From a virus, in the IMG/VR virus record IMGVR_UViG_3300042923_000371, positions 1-55,383 of that record: 55,383 nt of DNA. The stretch is one strand, 5' to 3'. The translations under genes and the position numbers were made by a program. This document shows, in pieces, positions 5,700-14,535 of the stretch. Every line of letters begins with the position of its first letter. Position 1 is the stretch's first letter. Below the pieces are notes generated by a model. The model worked only from the letters and a program-made list of their open reading frames with translations, did not search any database and was not told the DNA's origin.

Positions 5700-6161
5700 T
5701 TGACAAATGAAACCATAAAACAAATGCTTTACAACTACAAGAAGCTTGACAAATGGATATTAGATTGTGAAAAGGAACTAAGTTTTATTAAAGAAAAAAT
5801 AGATGTCTTGTACAGTGTAGGAATTAGTACATTGTCTAATATGCCCCATGGAACAGGAATTTCAGACAATACATTTAATGCAGTAGACGGAGTAATCGAA
5901 CTAAAAGAAACCTATAATGAACGGTCAAAGGTTATTGCAAAGGAATTAAAGGAATACTACAAGCAAAAAGAACTTGTTGAGTGGATATATCCGCAGCTTA
6001 GACCGTTGCATCAGGAAATTATAGAAAAGCGATATTTTCAGAATATGGCATGGAAAGAAATATATGCAGAATCACAATTAGAAATGCAATCATACCTTGA
6101 TGCGAATACTAAAATGTATAAAGTTATTAATGGACTACTAAAACAAAAAGCAGAGAATTAA
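5700..6161 (+). CDS. ArpU/sigma-region-4-like late gene regulator
   Basis: A 153-residue protein of the phage transcription regulator type that ends early operons in Firmicutes phages and switches on late genes. It uses a TTG start 8 bases after AGGAGG. The N-terminal two thirds are helical. The C-terminus (about 103-150) has a helix-turn-helix-like stretch, LHQEIIEKRYFQNMAWKEI then a recognition helix, as in ArpU/RinA-like proteins and sigma region 4. Being the last gene before a bidirectional terminator and the start of the late region supports the role. Assignment by pattern; the exact DNA target is unknown. Confidence 0.75.
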   Translation: MTNETIKQMLYNYKKLDKWILDCEKELSFIKEKIDVLYSVGISTLSNMPHGTGISDNTFNAVDGVIELKETYNERSKVIAKELKEYYKQKELVEWIYPQLRPLHQEIIEKRYFQNMAWKEIYAESQLEMQSYLDANTKMYKVINGLLKQKAEN

Positions 6162-6175
6162 ATCTCTGCTTTTTT
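6145..6175. terminator. Bidirectional intrinsic terminator
   Basis: AAGCAGAGA at 6148-6156 pairs with TCTCTGCTT at 6163-6171 around a 6-base loop. The + strand is followed by a T-run and the opposite strand by a run of T as well (A-run at 6145-6149). It separates two converging operons whose last codons it overlaps. Confidence 0.9.
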
Positions 6176-6409
6176 CTTTGATTCTGCTATATAGTTTTCA
6201 ATTTGCGAAAATGTATAACCTCTGTTAATGAGATATTTTATAATCATTTCAGTAATAAATGTTGCTGTTGGCTTATCTTCAAATTTTAATTCATCAGTAA
6301 AAAGCTTTTTAAGTCCTTTAGGCAAGTCAACCGACAAAGTATCGTAATTAATTTTTCTAAAGTTTTGCCTGTATTTCTTAGCTTGCTCTGTTTCGTCCCA
6401 TTTTCCCAT
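6158..6409 (-). CDS. Ribbon-helix-helix-type hypothetical protein
   Basis: An 83-residue protein, last in the leftward operon, with GGAGG before its ATG. After a polar N-terminus it shows a beta-strand/two-helix pattern, DTLSVDLPKGLKKLF then a helix ending in EMIIKYLINRG, typical of Arc/CopG-like DNA-binding dimers. It could be an operon autoregulator. Its stop overlaps the stop of the ArpU-like gene on the other strand. Confidence 0.65.
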   Translation of the reverse strand: MGKWDETEQAKKYRQNFRKINYDTLSVDLPKGLKKLFTDELKFEDKPTATFITEMIIKYLINRGYTFSQIENYIAESKKKAEI

Positions 6410-6424
6410 TGTGTGTCCTCCTGT

Positions 6425-6661
6425 TTATCTTGCTAATTTACAATATTTATCTATAACTCTATCTGCCATACTCCATACTAAGACATTTACTTCTTTATAA
6501 CTTTCGGCTCTTGCAACTTGTTCCCATATAGCTCTATCAATTTCGCTCATGCTTTCAAAAGCTTTATCTATATTATTTTGTCTTACTGCTGTAAGTTGAC
6601 GTTTTTGCCATCTTTTAAGTTGTTCATTTAATTTGATTTGTTCTTGTTCTGTATAAGTCAT
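6425..6661 (-). CDS. Hypothetical helical protein
   Basis: A 78-residue, all-helical charged protein starting within the end of the recombinase gene (ATG overlaps its stop) with GGAGGAAAG upstream. It has no recognisable motif. Its tight coupling to the recombinase suggests a shared role, for example as an accessory or directionality factor, but that is inference only. Confidence 0.65.
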   Translation of the reverse strand: MTYTEQEQIKLNEQLKRWQKRQLTAVRQNNIDKAFESMSEIDRAIWEQVARAESYKEVNVLVWSMADRVIDKYCKLAR

Positions 6662-7527
6662 TCTTTCCTCCTGTTTAGTGGGTTATTCTTAACCGCTTCT
6701 TTCAATTGCTTGTTATCAATATGTGTATATATTTGTGTAGTTGCCACGCTTTCATGCCCTAATATCTCCTGTAATGCTCGAATATCTGTGCCGGATTGAT
6801 ACATTAGGGTGGCTGCGGTATGTCTTAGCTTGTGTGGTGAGCCTTTTAAACCAGCTAAAGCTAAATACTTATCTAGCATAGATTCAATGCCTTTTGCTGT
6901 CATTCTCATTTTGCGGTTACTTATAAATAATGCCTTATCGTTTAAATCTTTCCTACACGTCATATAATCGTCTATGGCTAACAAAACACTGTCATTAAGG
7001 TAAATAGTCCTTTCCTTATTACCCTTGCCGATAACGGTCAATATATCGCCTTGAATATCGTCTGTATTAATATTCACTAATTCGGACAACCTTAAACCAC
7101 TGTTAAGAAATAATGTCACTATTGCAAAGTCTCTCTTGTTGTCAATCACACTTAAAAGCTTTTCGGCATCTTCTAGTTTATAATAAATCGGCAACCGCTT
7201 TTCAATTTTAGGCGTTTCTAATTCTAGTGTCGGATTATACTCAATAACTTTTAACGTTACTTGTAGGTATTTAAAGTAACTTTTAAGGCACGCAATACGT
7301 CTTGCCTTACTTTTATTTGAATTACCCCTCTCGTTGCTTAAAAACGATATAAAAGCGTGTAGGTCTGTAATGGTTATTTTCTTTAATTCCTTTATGCTGA
7401 TTTCTTTTTTCTTAAATCTTGATTTTAAAAAGTCAAAGAAAATATTTAGGTCCTTTTCGTATGCTGTTATTGTGTTGTCGGATTTTCCTTTTATGTCTTT
7501 CATGTAATTTAGATAATCGTCAATCAT
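6658..7527 (-). CDS. XerC/XerD-like tyrosine recombinase
   Basis: A 289-residue site-specific recombinase that breaks and rejoins DNA through a covalent phosphotyrosine. The N-terminal SAM-like core-binding domain (residues 1-90) contains the typical SDNTITAYEKDL. The catalytic domain has R146 (SGLRLSEL), K168, H232-x-x-R235 (HKLRHT), H258 (LGH) and nucleophile Y267. I start at the ATG at 7527, which has AAGGGG upstream. A longer frame to a TTG at 7599 lacks a ribosome site. It is distinct from the lysogeny integrase at 41786-42868, so it may resolve circular multimers or invert a segment. Confidence 0.88.
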   Translation of the reverse strand: MIDDYLNYMKDIKGKSDNTITAYEKDLNIFFDFLKSRFKKKEISIKELKKITITDLHAFISFLSNERGNSNKSKARRIACLKSYFKYLQVTLKVIEYNPTLELETPKIEKRLPIYYKLEDAEKLLSVIDNKRDFAIVTLFLNSGLRLSELVNINTDDIQGDILTVIGKGNKERTIYLNDSVLLAIDDYMTCRKDLNDKALFISNRKMRMTAKGIESMLDKYLALAGLKGSPHKLRHTAATLMYQSGTDIRALQEILGHESVATTQIYTHIDNKQLKEAVKNNPLNRRKE

Positions 7528-7639
7528 TGTATCGCCCCTTTCAAAATCTTCGTGTAGGCATTTTAACCTTGTTTTAACGTAAGATAATATATCAGCCAAG
7601 CAAATGTTTGACTGATATATTACTTTTGTTGAAGAAACC

Positions 7640-7798
7640 TTAAATTCTTAAATGGTTAATCAGGTGTAAATCATCTTTCATGTTGTCTATTAATGCAACT
7701 AAATTATCTCTTAGCTTTTTTACTTTATCTGTATCACTTTTGTCGATTGCATCAATATACTTATCAACCAATTCTTTTAATAATTCTTCTTTGCTCAT
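7640..7798 (-). CDS. Small helical hypothetical protein
   Basis: A 52-residue ORF with an AGGAGG site 7 bases before its ATG. The whole sequence is a charged amphipathic helix (SKEELLKELVDKYIDAIDK). It belongs to the leftward chain of small genes, whose spacers share a common CTCATAGGAGG module. Unknown function. Confidence 0.65.
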   Translation of the reverse strand: MSKEELLKELVDKYIDAIDKSDTDKVKKLRDNLVALIDNMKDDLHLINHLRI

Positions 7799-7809
7799 TT
7801 CATGTCCTC

Positions 7810-7971
7810 CTATGAGTTTAATTTTATAATTTCGGTATGATATTCTTTGTGGTTTAAATTAATATTAATACCTCTTTCCATTCGTTCGGCTGCTCTGAGC
7901 GATTCTGTTGATTCTAATTCCTGCACAACCTTACCTTGATTATCTTTTATTACAACTTTAAATTTTTCCAT
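7810..7971 (-). CDS. Small hypothetical protein
   Basis: A 53-residue ORF with AGGAGGACGG before its ATG. It opens with a beta hairpin (EKFKVVIKDNQGKVVQEL), followed by a helix and a C-terminal strand. Its stop codon lies in the repeated CTCATAGGAGG module that supplies the ribosome site of the following gene. Unknown function. Confidence 0.6.
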   Translation of the reverse strand: MEKFKVVIKDNQGKVVQELESTESLRAAERMERGININLNHKEYHTEIIKLNS

Positions 7972-7992
7972 TGATACCGTCCTCCTATGAGT

Positions 7993-8253
7993 TTAATTTT
8001 CGGCTGATAAAGCTTGTATATTGTAATTTTCTATAAAATCCCTTATATATTGCGGATGCTTGCTCATTGGTAAATCTTTCATATCATATCTTGTATTTAC
8101 TCTTGTTAATAATGAGGCGTGTTTATAGTTGCCATATTTTATATGAATATGGTATTTTTCACACATTACGACATCCCCATTTTTGAAATTATCTGACCCT
8201 TTATTTTTTAATTCTTCTCTTGTTAAAATATACATATTGTCTTTGTTAAACAT
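7993..8253 (-). CDS. Hypothetical protein
   Basis: An 86-residue protein with AGGAGGG before its ATG. It has a short barrel-like segment around NGDVVMCEKYHIHIKYGNY, with several histidines and tyrosines. The stop precedes a copy of the CTCATAGGAGG spacer shared with the neighbours. No family recognised. Confidence 0.65.
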   Translation of the reverse strand: MFNKDNMYILTREELKNKGSDNFKNGDVVMCEKYHIHIKYGNYKHASLLTRVNTRYDMKDLPMSKHPQYIRDFIENYNIQALSAEN

Positions 8254-8293
8254 CTATACCCTCCTATGAGTTTTTAAAATCTTCGATAAACCC

Positions 8294-8377
8294 CTATAAA
8301 TCAATCTTATTTTCAACTATTGCCGATACTCCTATAAATACCAATAAGAATAAATTCATTGATAAAAAAGTTCCCAT
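8294..8377 (-). CDS. Tiny membrane peptide
   Basis: A 27-residue ORF with a near-perfect ribosome site (AAGGAGGAATT). It encodes a single hydrophobic helix (MNLFLLVFIGVSAIV) with a short charged end. Its ribosome site overlaps the -35 box of the oppositely oriented promoter at 8387-8415, so transcription of the two strands may interfere. Confidence 0.5.
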   Translation of the reverse strand: MGTFLSMNLFLLVFIGVSAIVENKIDL

Positions 8378-8386
8378 AATTCCTCC

Positions 8387-8415
8387 TTGAATTAAAAGGC
8401 GGAATCGGTTATAAT
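8387..8415 (+). promoter_or_regulatory. Near-consensus sigma-A promoter facing right
   Basis: TTGAAT at 8387-8392 and TATAAT at 8410-8415 are separated by exactly 17 bases. The promoter points rightward inside a leftward operon and should start a transcript near 8422. Only about 65 bases downstream lies a strong intrinsic terminator. Confidence 0.7.
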
Positions 8416-8421
8416 AACCTT

Positions 8422-8489
8422 ACCCGCCTGATTGGTGGTTGGTGTAGCATCTCGATTGCTTGCAGGCTTCGTGCTACACCATTTTTATT
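8422..8489 (+). ncRNA. Candidate short antisense or regulatory RNA
   Basis: The predicted transcript of about 65-70 nt has no start codon with a ribosome site. It ends in a hairpin, TGGTGTAGCA (8440-8449) with TGCTACACCA (8472-8481), followed by TTTTT. Promoter, short body and terminator form a complete small-RNA unit on the strand opposite to the surrounding genes. The 3' end overlaps the last codon of the gene at 8488-9081, so it could pair with that message. Confidence 0.55.
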
Positions 8490-9081
8490 AGTCCATCATG
8501 CACCATTGATGCGTTCTGATTTTGTATTCACTCAATATTTGCATTGCGTCTTCCATTCTTGTTGATTCGTTAAAACTGTCTGTTAATGCCTTCCAAGCTT
8601 TTTTCAGTCCTCTTGATGTCTTGTTGTAAAATGCAGGTTCATTGTAGCTATCTTTTAAATCTCTTCCGAATACTTCTTTTTCGCTTTGTAATTCAATAAT
8701 ACAATTGGAATTTTTCAACTTATTATCAGTGATTTCAACTTCTTTGAATCCGAATCTGTTAATAAATGTTTGAAGCTTTTCGACTTGTTTGTCTTGATAT
8801 TCATTAAAAGCTTTTTCAGTTACGAATCTTGTTGAGCCATTGCCTTTATCAATTTCTGATATCATAAATTCAGATATCATTTTAATTTCTCTTTCTACGT
8901 CGATTTCCTTTAATGTATATGCTTGATTACTGCTATTGTAATTAGTAATTTCAAACCATCCTGGGCAATTTGCCATATCGCCACGATAATATATTTTTTG
9001 TCCTGTTTGGTATTTGCAAGATGCTTCTTTCTTGACTTCTTGTGTTCTCATATTTGGGAACTGTATTATTTTAGCTGCCAT
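8488..9081 (-). CDS. Hypothetical protein of the leftward operon
   Basis: A 197-residue protein with GGAGG before its ATG. The N-terminal third is beta-rich (GQKIYYRGDMANCPGWFEITN); the remainder is helical and charged. It is the largest unknown of this operon. No catalytic motif is seen. A convergent small RNA terminator overlaps its end. Confidence 0.75.
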   Translation of the reverse strand: MAAKIIQFPNMRTQEVKKEASCKYQTGQKIYYRGDMANCPGWFEITNYNSSNQAYTLKEIDVEREIKMISEFMISEIDKGNGSTRFVTEKAFNEYQDKQVEKLQTFINRFGFKEVEITDNKLKNSNCIIELQSEKEVFGRDLKDSYNEPAFYNKTSRGLKKAWKALTDSFNESTRMEDAMQILSEYKIRTHQWCMMD

Positions 9082-9085
9082 TGTT

Positions 9086-9271
9086 TCAATCCTCCATTAA
9101 ATAATTTATTAATTCTTTAATACTTTCTGATTCTTTGACTGTATTTCCGTCTTTGTCTATTAAATAATAGTTGTAATAGTAATCTTTTCTATCTCCCAAG
9201 CATTGCTTTTTATAAACATTTAAGTTTTTAGCTTCTGCGAATGCTGTCAAGGCTTTTAATGACCATCGCAT
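9086..9271 (-). CDS. Small hypothetical protein
   Basis: A 61-residue ORF with GGAGGG before the ATG. A helix is followed by a tyrosine-rich strand pair (DYYYNYYLIDKDGNTVKE) and a final helix. It lies between a structured RNA spacer and the 8488 gene. Unknown function. Confidence 0.65.
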   Translation of the reverse strand: MRWSLKALTAFAEAKNLNVYKKQCLGDRKDYYYNYYLIDKDGNTVKESESIKELINYLMED

Positions 9272-9337
9272 GTTTATCCCTCCATGAATTTAATTTTTAA
9301 TTGATAAACCATTATGTCAATTTCTATGTCTGTAAGC

Positions 9338-9382
9338 GTTGAGGGCATTTCTGCCCTGTTGGAATCTTACCAACCTTGCAAC
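9338..9382 (-). ncRNA. Three-way-junction RNA motif, copy 1
   Basis: On the minus strand this 45-base spacer folds into a compact three-way junction: outer stem GTTG/CAAC (9338-9341 with 9379-9382), a 6-bp stem AGGGCA/TGCCCT closed by a GAAA loop, and a 5-bp stem GTTGG/CCAAC with the 7-base loop TAAGATT. A CAAG linker joins the outer stem to the 7-base-loop stem. A second copy with different stems but the same plan is at 9602-9654. It lies directly after the stop of the 9391 gene. Confidence 0.55.
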
Positions 9383-9390
9383 CTCGGGAC

Positions 9391-9573
9391 TTATTCTGCT
9401 CTGAAATTAACACAGTCACAATTTTTTAATGCTATACTATCTGCTATATATTCTTTTGCTACTTCTATTGCTTCTTCTTCACTTTCTGCTGATACTGCTT
9501 GCAATGTTCCTGTGTGGTATTTTCCTGCTCCCTTATCATAAATGGTATTCCAACTAACTTTGTATTCTCTCAT
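9391..9573 (-). CDS. Small hypothetical protein
   Basis: A 60-residue ORF with GGAGG before its ATG. Strand-helix-strand pattern: REYKVSWNTIYDKG, then an acidic helix ESEEEAIEVAKEYIADS, then CDCVNFRAE. It is flanked on both sides by the paired structured RNA motifs. Unknown function. Confidence 0.65.
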   Translation of the reverse strand: MREYKVSWNTIYDKGAGKYHTGTLQAVSAESEEEAIEVAKEYIADSIALKNCDCVNFRAE

Positions 9574-9601
9574 TTTATACCTCCAATTTTATTGCCTTAT
9601 C

Positions 9602-9654
9602 AGGTTGAGCTTTGGGGAATCTCTTCCCCTGCTGAATTTCACAGCCTTGAACCT
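9602..9654 (-). ncRNA. Three-way-junction RNA motif, copy 2
   Basis: Minus-strand fold: outer stem AGGTT/AACCT (9602-9606 with 9650-9654), a 6-bp stem GGGGAA/TTCCCC with loop GAGA, and a 4-bp stem GCTG/CAGC with the 7-base loop TGAAATT. The CAAG linker, GNRA-type tetraloop and 7-base loop are shared with copy 1 at 9338-9382, while the stem sequences differ by compensating changes. It sits between two small genes. Confidence 0.55.
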
Positions 9655-9672
9655 TGCCCTGTTTAATCGTTT

Positions 9673-9837
9673 TTATTTATTCTGCCAAATTTCAAGTTTT
9701 ATAATTATTTTTTCTAATTCATTAGCTTCTTTCTTTGCACCAATCTCAAGTAATTTATAATATTTATGTCTTAATTCGTCTTTTTCGTGGTTTACAGAAC
9801 TTTTTAATTCTTCAATTTTTTCGTAATTTTGGTTCAT
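9673..9837 (-). CDS. Small coiled-coil protein, first gene of the leftward operon
   Basis: A 54-residue ORF with GGAGGTAG before its ATG. It is a continuous charged helix (NYEKIEELKSSVNHEKDELR and on) consistent with a short coiled coil. It is the first gene after the leftward promoter at 9869-9897. Unknown function. Confidence 0.65.
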   Translation of the reverse strand: MNQNYEKIEELKSSVNHEKDELRHKYYKLLEIGAKKEANELEKIIIKLEIWQNK

Positions 9838-10012: not shown

Positions 10013-10158
10013 GTAAAGTTATTTCAATAACTTAACAATTTTACCGGAACTATTAGAGAGCAGTCTTAATAGTTACACCAAAATGCGGTAGGAATTTCGC
10101 AATGACTACCCAATATAACATAAAGGAAGCAGTTACCCCTTAGCTGACTTCTTTTTTT
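10013..10158 (+). ncRNA. Terminated structured leader RNA ahead of the late operon
   Basis: The predicted transcript contains three hairpins: AAGTTATT/AATAACTT (10016-10033), AACTATTA/TAATAGTT (10048-10074) and GGTAG/CTACC (10087-10110). It ends in an intrinsic terminator. No plausible ORF with a ribosome site is present. Its position resembles the short terminated leader upstream of the late genes in lambda, where an antiterminator allows read-through. That parallel is inference. Confidence 0.55.
10126..10158 (+). terminator. Strong intrinsic terminator
   Basis: GAAG plus CAGTTA (10126-10135) pairs with TAGCTG plus CTTC (10141-10151), with one bulged A and a 5-base loop, followed by seven T residues. 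Confidence 0.85.
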
Positions 10159-10239
10159 AATGTCAAATCAAATGCAGTGGCGGAAAGGGTAACGCATCTA
10201 AAGAATACATAGCTTATAGACGTATATTAAAATGGTTGG

Positions 10240-10295
10240 CTGTGCGGTGAAAGTCCGTAATAGAGTTGACGAACGTGCAAGGTCCAATTCCTTGC
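10240..10295 (+). other. Structured 5' leader of the terminase small-subunit gene
   Basis: Two hairpins precede the terminase gene: CGG/CCG with a 7-base loop (10245-10257) and GCAAGG/CCTTGC with a 7-base loop TCCAATT (10277-10295). The second looks like a tRNA T-arm, but no matching acceptor stem was found, so a functional tRNA is unlikely. It may be a remnant of a tRNA-like structure or a leader fold. The rest of 10160-10320 shows no gene. Confidence 0.4.
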
Positions 10296-10333
10296 CTGCA
10301 ATTTTAAAAATAAATAATTAGGAGGTGCTTTTA

Positions 10334-14464: not shown

Positions 14465-14535
14465 GCCGATATAGTTCAATGGTAGAACAACTGTCCTGTA
14501 AATAGTAAGCGTGGGTTCAATTCCCTCTTTCGGCT
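14465..14535 (+). tRNA. tRNA-Thr (anticodon TGT), with C at position 33
   Basis: A 71-base cloverleaf: acceptor GCCGATA/TTTCGGC (one T-T mismatch), D-arm GTTC/GAAC with GG in the loop, anticodon arm ACTGT/ATAGT with loop CCTGTAA, 4-base variable loop, T-arm GTGGG/CCCTC with loop TTCAATT, discriminator T. The anticodon TGT (14497-14499) reads ACA, a very frequent threonine codon in this genome. The base before the anticodon is C instead of the near-universal T33, which may lower function. The CCA end is not encoded. Confidence 0.8.

Follow-up and report, generated by a model that had tools for sequence, protein, structure and literature searches.

A short T-loop-like junction RNA related to RAGATH-36 lies in two gene spacers of a phage operon

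The DNA analysed here, called the window, is a whole IMG/VR virus record of 55,383 bases from an unclassified phage. Described phages are very distant from it, since its large terminase gave only partial matches, with less than 60% identity, among 50,697 phage records. When viral contigs were searched via the flanking proteins, no relatives were found for the 60-aa, the 197-aa and the terminase proteins, and the integrase had one distant match. A leftward gene run extends over positions 6158-9837, with a tyrosine integrase inside (6658-7599). The gaps between its genes are mostly short, except for three long ones (9574-9672, 9272-9390 and 8378-8487), each of which contains a folding RNA. The features around the first two are the following:

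9673-9837, minus strand: 54-aa gene upstream of copy 2, the open reading frame with which the leftward operon begins
9601-9661, minus strand (9605-9661 without the outer CAGG/CCUG pairing): copy 2 of the element, detected by model R1 and by a blastn homologue with compensatory changes
9391-9573, minus strand: 60-aa gene between copies 1 and 2, with no protein family assigned
9332-9394, minus strand: copy 1 of the element, matched by RAGATH-36 and by model R1
9086-9271, minus strand: 61-aa gene downstream of copy 1, with the ribosome-binding site GGAGGG

The 3' end of each copy lies 28-61 nt from the next start codon, and the UAA stop codon of the 60-aa gene falls within the 5' strand of the P1 stem of copy 1. 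An internal intrinsic terminator was looked for in the leftward operon, and none was found ahead of the operon end, around 6145-6174. The sole tRNA of the window (14465-14535) is on the plus strand, opposite to the elements.

Two other segments of the window were also inspected. The third long spacer (8397-8487, minus strand) shows a 10-bp hairpin, GGTGTAGCA..TGCTACACC, followed by GGCGGGTAA[GGTTATTATAACC]GATTCCGCC, a segment that resembles the T-loop GGUAAGAUUCC interrupted by an inserted hairpin. It sits ahead of an unlisted 27-aa membrane-like ORF (8294-8377), the fold z-score of 8254-8490 is -3.5, and no homologue of the spacer was found among phages. On the plus strand, around 300 nt without a gene (10020-10320) precede the rightward operon, with a hairpin that has a T-run at about 10128-10158 and then GTGCGGTGAAAGTCCG...GCAAGGTCCAATTCCTTGC, which includes another 7-nt T-loop-like loop; this region had no Rfam match, and its overall fold was not clearly better than that of shuffled sequences.

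A previous sequence-only reading had proposed that the spacers at 9338-9382 and 9602-9654 fold on the minus strand into one and the same three-way-junction plan. This plan was written as a descriptor, in which CAAG precedes a stem of 4 bp or more carrying a TRARATT loop, followed in turn by a stem of 5-6 bp with a GNRA loop. It matched exactly twice in the 55 kb, both times in these spacers and on the minus strand, and 150 dinucleotide shuffles gave no match. Even without CAAG and GNRA these were the only two matches, with a shuffle mean of 0.35. The common plan was thus borne out, as was the location of both copies, although their lengths had to be corrected from the relatives described below, which give 9332-9394 for copy 1 and 9605-9661 or 9601-9661 for copy 2.

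In its corrected form the element consists of a P1 stem with a 3-nt RAG bulge, a 4-nt CNNG linker, a P2 hairpin with a 7-nt UNNRAUU loop similar to the tRNA T-loop, a variable P3 hairpin, and the closing strand AAMGCUY. The conserved flanks, RAGGUU on the 5' side and AAMGCUY on the 3' side, had been missed before. In copy 1, P1 is UAAG(UCC)C-GAG-GUUG paired with CAAC-G-CUUA, the linker is CAAG, P2 is GUUGG[UAAGAUU]CCAAC, P3 is AGGGCA[GAAA]UGCCCU and the closing strand is AACGCUUA; the UCCC insertion is peculiar to this copy. In copy 2, an outer CAGG/CCUG pairing encloses a P1 of GGGC-AAG-GUU with AAAGCUC, followed by the linker CAAG, P2 GCUG[UGAAAUU]CAGC and P3 GGGGAA[GAGA]UUCCCC. The outer stem proposed at first for copy 1 (GUUG/CAAC) agrees with the family, whereas that of copy 2 (AGGUU/AACCU) is probably wrong, as homology backs GGGC/GCUC plus CAGG/CCUG, and the homologue from phage THSA-485A, described below, folds with an outer GCAGG/CCUGC. 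For both copies the minimum-energy prediction contains the hairpins P2 and P3. The folding energies alone are only moderately better than those of shuffles (z between -1.5 and -2.6), a point in favour of chance hairpins in A+T-rich spacers.

A blastn search of phages with copy 2 gave one good match (76% identity over 92% of the query, E 0.01), in the Thermoanaerobacterium phage THSA-485A:

CP003186, 3459-3518, minus strand: THSA-485A element, on the coding strand of an unannotated gene spacer

The stop codon of Tsac_2836 directly precedes it, and its other end is around 45 nt before Tsac_2835; like copy 2, it occupies the interval between a stop codon and a small gene. The strands preserved between the two are CAGGGCAAG, UGUGAAAUUCA and GCUCAACCUG, in such a way that both share CAGGGCAAGRUUC, UGUGAAAUUCA and AAMGCUCAACCUG, and the stems are maintained through five double-sided changes (one pair in P2, four in P3) with no pair broken. 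Kept strands, compensated stems and genic position therefore place both in one spacer element. Substitutions that break the stems in homologous spacers had been named as the outcome that would count against the motif, and in THSA-485A the stems survive. By contrast, its P3 sequence is entirely different, its P3 loop is not GNRA, a single copy was found, and its flanking genes are unrelated to those of the window, including the 60-aa gene compared with the following gene. The GNRA loop, present in both window copies, is absent from the relatives and is not diagnostic as had been supposed; a tertiary contact through it was rejected because the loop is not conserved. What does not vary is the T-loop, together with the RAG bulge and the strand AAMGCUY.

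Two further observations concern this phage. A CRISPR array (L085, 289-340; G629:C40) with 26 repeats (GTTTCAATTCCTTATAGGTAGGCTAAAAAC) holds a spacer that agrees at 34/37 bases with the THSA-485A element, over its 3' part and the adjoining flank, so that here the copy carried by a related phage was sampled as a spacer. In the next spacer of THSA-485A itself (L081, 5430-5565) there are two tRNA T-arm-like hairpins, GAGGGTTCGAATCCCTC and GCAGGGTTCGATACCCTGC, with neither a tRNA call nor any credible Rfam family.

The element was then compared with known RNA families. With Rfam at gathering thresholds, only the tRNA was detected in the window. In a permissive scan, copy 1 aligned with the first third of RAGATH-36 (RF03104) with 26.1 bits (E 6e-5 for the phage genome), far below the gathering threshold of 70 bits of this family, and copy 2 had no match to the Rfam model up to E 5. 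The RAGATH-36 5' domain combines a P2 with the loop UAMGAUU, a P3 and AACGCUUA. Copy 1 reproduces it letter for letter in the loop and the closing strand; its AACGCUUA is the family consensus, and its GGUAAGAUUCC differs at one loop position that is variable in the family too. Copy 2 is a variant, with the loop UGAAAUU and the closing strand AAAGCUC. The RAGATH-36 3' domain (positions around 48-128 and beyond) is absent, as the 3' half of the copy 1 alignment enters the next gene, and the 3'-domain motifs GGAARTGCTRCC and AAGTGCAYCCTTG occur in the window only at chance level.

RAGATH-36 cores were gathered from viral contigs and genomes by degenerate patterns, and sixteen of them, all from other phages and with the window excluded, were used to build model R1, in which the P1-P2 hairpin was cut and the P3 loops shortened in order to describe the compact form. 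Over all positions of the window, the best R1 score was that of copy 1 (27.1 bits, E 2e-6), with copy 2 next (15.7 bits, E 0.013) and a third match at 8.8 bits, the E-values of our home-made models R1, R2 and R3 being rough. As copy 1, along with the Rfam consensus, had suggested the patterns, its own result is not wholly independent; copy 2 was not involved. Standard pairs fill 98.5% of the pair cells of the 16 cores; 43 changes are double-sided, and none of 500 shuffles was as good. R1 gave only 10 bits to the THSA-485A element; model R2, with the window copies included in its training, gave it 23.2 bits (E 2e-5 in 8.5 kb). Ten representatives were also aligned, window and THSA-485A rows included, and 97% of the cells pair, with a covariation score reached by 0/500 shuffles.

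The true cores read, from 5' to 3', AAGCGAGGUU(CGA), an optional hairpin, P2 with UAMGAUU, P3 and AACGCUUA. The upstream strand AAGCGAGGUU pairs with AACGCUU, which makes the RAGATH-36 core a closed junction. As a side result, the Rfam model lacks this invariant upstream strand (CGAGGTT, mostly AAGCGAGGTTCGA) that closes the junction, most RAGATH-36 copies fall below the Rfam gathering threshold, and the motifs GGAARTGCTRCC and GTGCAYCC are conserved downstream (L009-L018, L034, L035, L037, L038 and L072).

These data show that the copies are a real conserved element, with sequence and fold kept in unrelated phages through compensatory changes, and that it lies on the coding strand, in spacers, independently of the adjoining genes. 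That the structures are chance hairpins with an accidental likeness to RAGATH-36 is very improbable. Apart from the moderate folding energies, what speaks for it is that the sequences behind R1 were gathered with patterns partly suggested by copy 1; against it stand the absence of the descriptor from the 150 shuffles, the top ranks of both copies in the window with R1, and the homologous THSA-485A spacer with its compensatory changes. A conserved covarying junction RNA that occurs twice in one operon, as originally proposed, is supported. Its description as new-looking holds for the free-standing variant and not for the fold, which is the 5' domain of RAGATH-36. The element is a minimal free-standing variant of a known, uncharacterised RNA kind, not a wholly new one.

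In other phages, a co-oriented tRNA lies 158-639 nt downstream of 11 of the 17 RAGATH-36 cores, and other cores precede an ORF with a ribosome-binding site. Where the 3' domain is present, it carries the motifs GGAARUGCURCC and GUGCAYCC and can end shortly before a tRNA, in such a way that in several phages the full RAGATH-36 reaches almost to the tRNA 5' end. It is missing in three cores (L009 at 12282, L011, and the first copy of L037), and paired cores occur around 0.4 kb apart in L009 and around 1 kb apart in L037; the window copies resemble this core-only, paired type. In L011 a UAA stop codon lies within the 5' strand of P1, as in copy 1, and in L016 and L017 the RAGATH-36 copies are within tRNA arrays, not at operon starts. 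Two other RNAs were seen on these contigs: RAGATH-16 accompanies RAGATH-36 in L009 (3230-3300) and L014 (10860-10930), and L017 also has a Pistol ribozyme.

Further free-standing copies were sought, since many hits in leftward phage operons had been predicted. This abundance was not found: beyond RAGATH-36 proper, THSA-485A provided the one additional free-standing spacer element of the copy 2 type. With copy 1, blastn gave chance-level matches only, and neither pattern nor DNA searches of Clostridia and Bacillota_A genomes detected a further copy. Models R2 and R3 found none either in around 790 Clostridia or Bacillota_A genomes, where the weak matches were chance-like except for the RAGATH-36 of one genome (G012), but the first-look filter used there also missed the THSA-485A element, so these negatives are weak and rarity is not proven. 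A DNA pattern of the copy 2 style had 14 matches in viral contigs; 12 belong to a single family of tail-fibre-like coding sequences, and the stems were present in none of the 14. Among the new loci found with the degenerate RAGATH pattern, only L072 is a real one; its P2 loop, UAAAAUU, fits the T-R-A-R-A-T-T form described initially. Other candidates were discarded: L083 looks like intron sequence, and the genome pattern matches L036, L039 and L040 are coding coincidences. As L039 received 24 bits from R1, matches selected by pattern can mislead.

With respect to its role, each copy would be an autonomous RNA fold of around 57-63 nt, a compact free-standing form of the RAGATH-36 5' junction domain that a polycistronic phage transcript carries in its untranslated spacers. 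The 7-nt P2 loop may adopt a T-loop and dock on the unpaired junction purines (the RAG bulge and the CNNG linker), as its sequence suggests, and such docking would produce a rigid, compact platform. The element would fold at the boundary between genes, at the stop codon of the upstream gene or directly behind it, and ahead of the ribosome-binding site or tRNA that comes next. There the element may work in cis on the transcript, and not on one gene, marking or insulating the boundary by stabilising the RNA, by steering its processing, or by contact with the transcription machinery. The mixed downstream genes and the location at gene ends (UAA in P1 of copy 1 and L011) favour such a transcript-level element. 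We give a probability of around 50% to this main reading, a cis-acting transcript element at the gene boundary (stability/processing or antitermination) and not a gene-specific switch. Within it, an action on stability or processing is a tentative proposal and antitermination a doubtful one; the former is put slightly ahead because no internal intrinsic terminator was found and some RAGATH-36 copies are within tRNA arrays.

The short distance between both copies and the next start codon would also suit a translational control element or riboswitch for the following gene, in which the leader junction exposes or hides the ribosome-binding site, perhaps upon binding of a ligand or of the encoded protein. 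One predicted fold of copy 1 even pairs the UCCC insertion with the Shine-Dalgarno sequence GGGA. However, we estimate that 4-base Shine-Dalgarno complements are expected by chance in leaders that long, for which this pairing was rejected as a mechanism, and UCCC is only in copy 1. The genes downstream are moreover unrelated between the window and THSA-485A, and in RAGATH-36 the same fold is ahead of tRNAs more often than of genes. Translational control is for us an unlikely explanation.

That the copies are a piece of a structured non-coding RNA acting in trans, released from the transcript as small RNAs, is quite unlikely. Rfam classes RAGATH-36 as Gene; sRNA, and tRNA processing would free the RNA in those phages where it ends just before tRNA 5' ends. 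There is also the precedent of ROOL and GOLLD, large RNAs hosted by phage tRNA islands (PMC12286853). By contrast, the 3' domain is absent from the window and THSA-485A copies, which are situated between close genes, with no adjoining terminator or tRNA. Kinship with ROOL or GOLLD was discarded, as no Rfam match to them appeared in the loci searched.

A further reading, which we put forward only tentatively, is that the element belongs to an unrecognised, widespread class of phage cis-RNA, a junction module locked by a T-loop that unrelated phages would employ as a portable boundary element of polycistronic RNAs. This module would be an RNA-only antiterminator or a processing/stability switch, with RAGATH-36 as a fused form and the free-standing copies as the minimal form. 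With around 60 nt and two natural copies between small genes, the minimal form shows the autonomous part of RAGATH-36 and makes reporter tests easy. Should it act on transcripts regardless of the gene that follows, it would serve as a portable part for regulation, and the same part would explain why phages place RAGATH-36 before tRNA arrays.

Compared with RAGATH-36, for which we know of no function, the element shares the 7-nt P2 loop (UAMGAUU in the family) closed by G-C, followed at once by a variable hairpin and then by AACGCUUA; both are found in phages, in intergenic positions and co-oriented with the downstream gene. The upstream strand CGAGGUU (mostly AAGCGAGGUU) is in 17/17 cores, and the window has CGAGGUU or GGGCAAGGUU. 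The window copies differ in that they lack the 3' domain, the P1-P2 hairpin and the adjoining tRNA array typical of the family, and for this last reason their function may differ. Within RAGATH-36 the P1-P2 hairpin is missing only in L010 and L072, with linkers CUCG and CGUG versus CAAG in the window.

The T-loop motif, found in the tRNA T-arm and other RNAs, is defined by a reverse-Hoogsteen pair U1-A5 and a purine intercalated from elsewhere. The P2 loops seen here (UACGAUU, UAAGAUU, UAAAAUU and UGAAAUU, i.e., U-N-N-R-A-U-U) have its 5-nt core (U1-N-N-R4-A5, within a stem-closed loop) by the sequence criterion, and share with it the 7-nt length and the closing G-C. Unlike in the T-arm, the position equivalent to 55 is A or G instead of U, and there is no tRNA body. 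The RAGATH-36 P2 CGGUACGAUUCCG and the T-arm CGGUUCGAUUCCG are one base apart, which explains that a tRNA T-arm at an integration site (L051/L056) appeared as a false match.

Finally, the cis-acting reading has a narrower form, counted within it, in which the element is an RNA-only processive antiterminator of the HK022 put type: the nascent element would bind RNA polymerase and make it resistant to both Rho-dependent and intrinsic termination over an operon with little translation or a tRNA array. In put, the nascent RNA suppresses termination through the beta' zinc-binding domain. By description, the likeness is that of a structured nascent RNA of the same size class (around 60-70 nt) close to where an early phage operon starts, with two per phage and without need of a gene-specific partner. 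The element is likewise near the operon start, after the first gene, in the window and THSA-485A, and in RAGATH-36 phages it precedes tRNA arrays, which are untranslated. As no internal intrinsic terminator was found before about 6145-6174, there is, in contrast, no obvious target to overcome, and some RAGATH-36 copies are within the tRNA arrays, so this narrower form seems improbable. HK022 has two put sites of around 70 nt each, putR lying around 270 nt from its promoter, and put is V-shaped, formed by two long stem-loops with a triplex (PMC9378689). Whereas put thus has no T-loop junction and occurs once per operon, the element described here is a T-loop junction closed by P1, with two copies in one operon.
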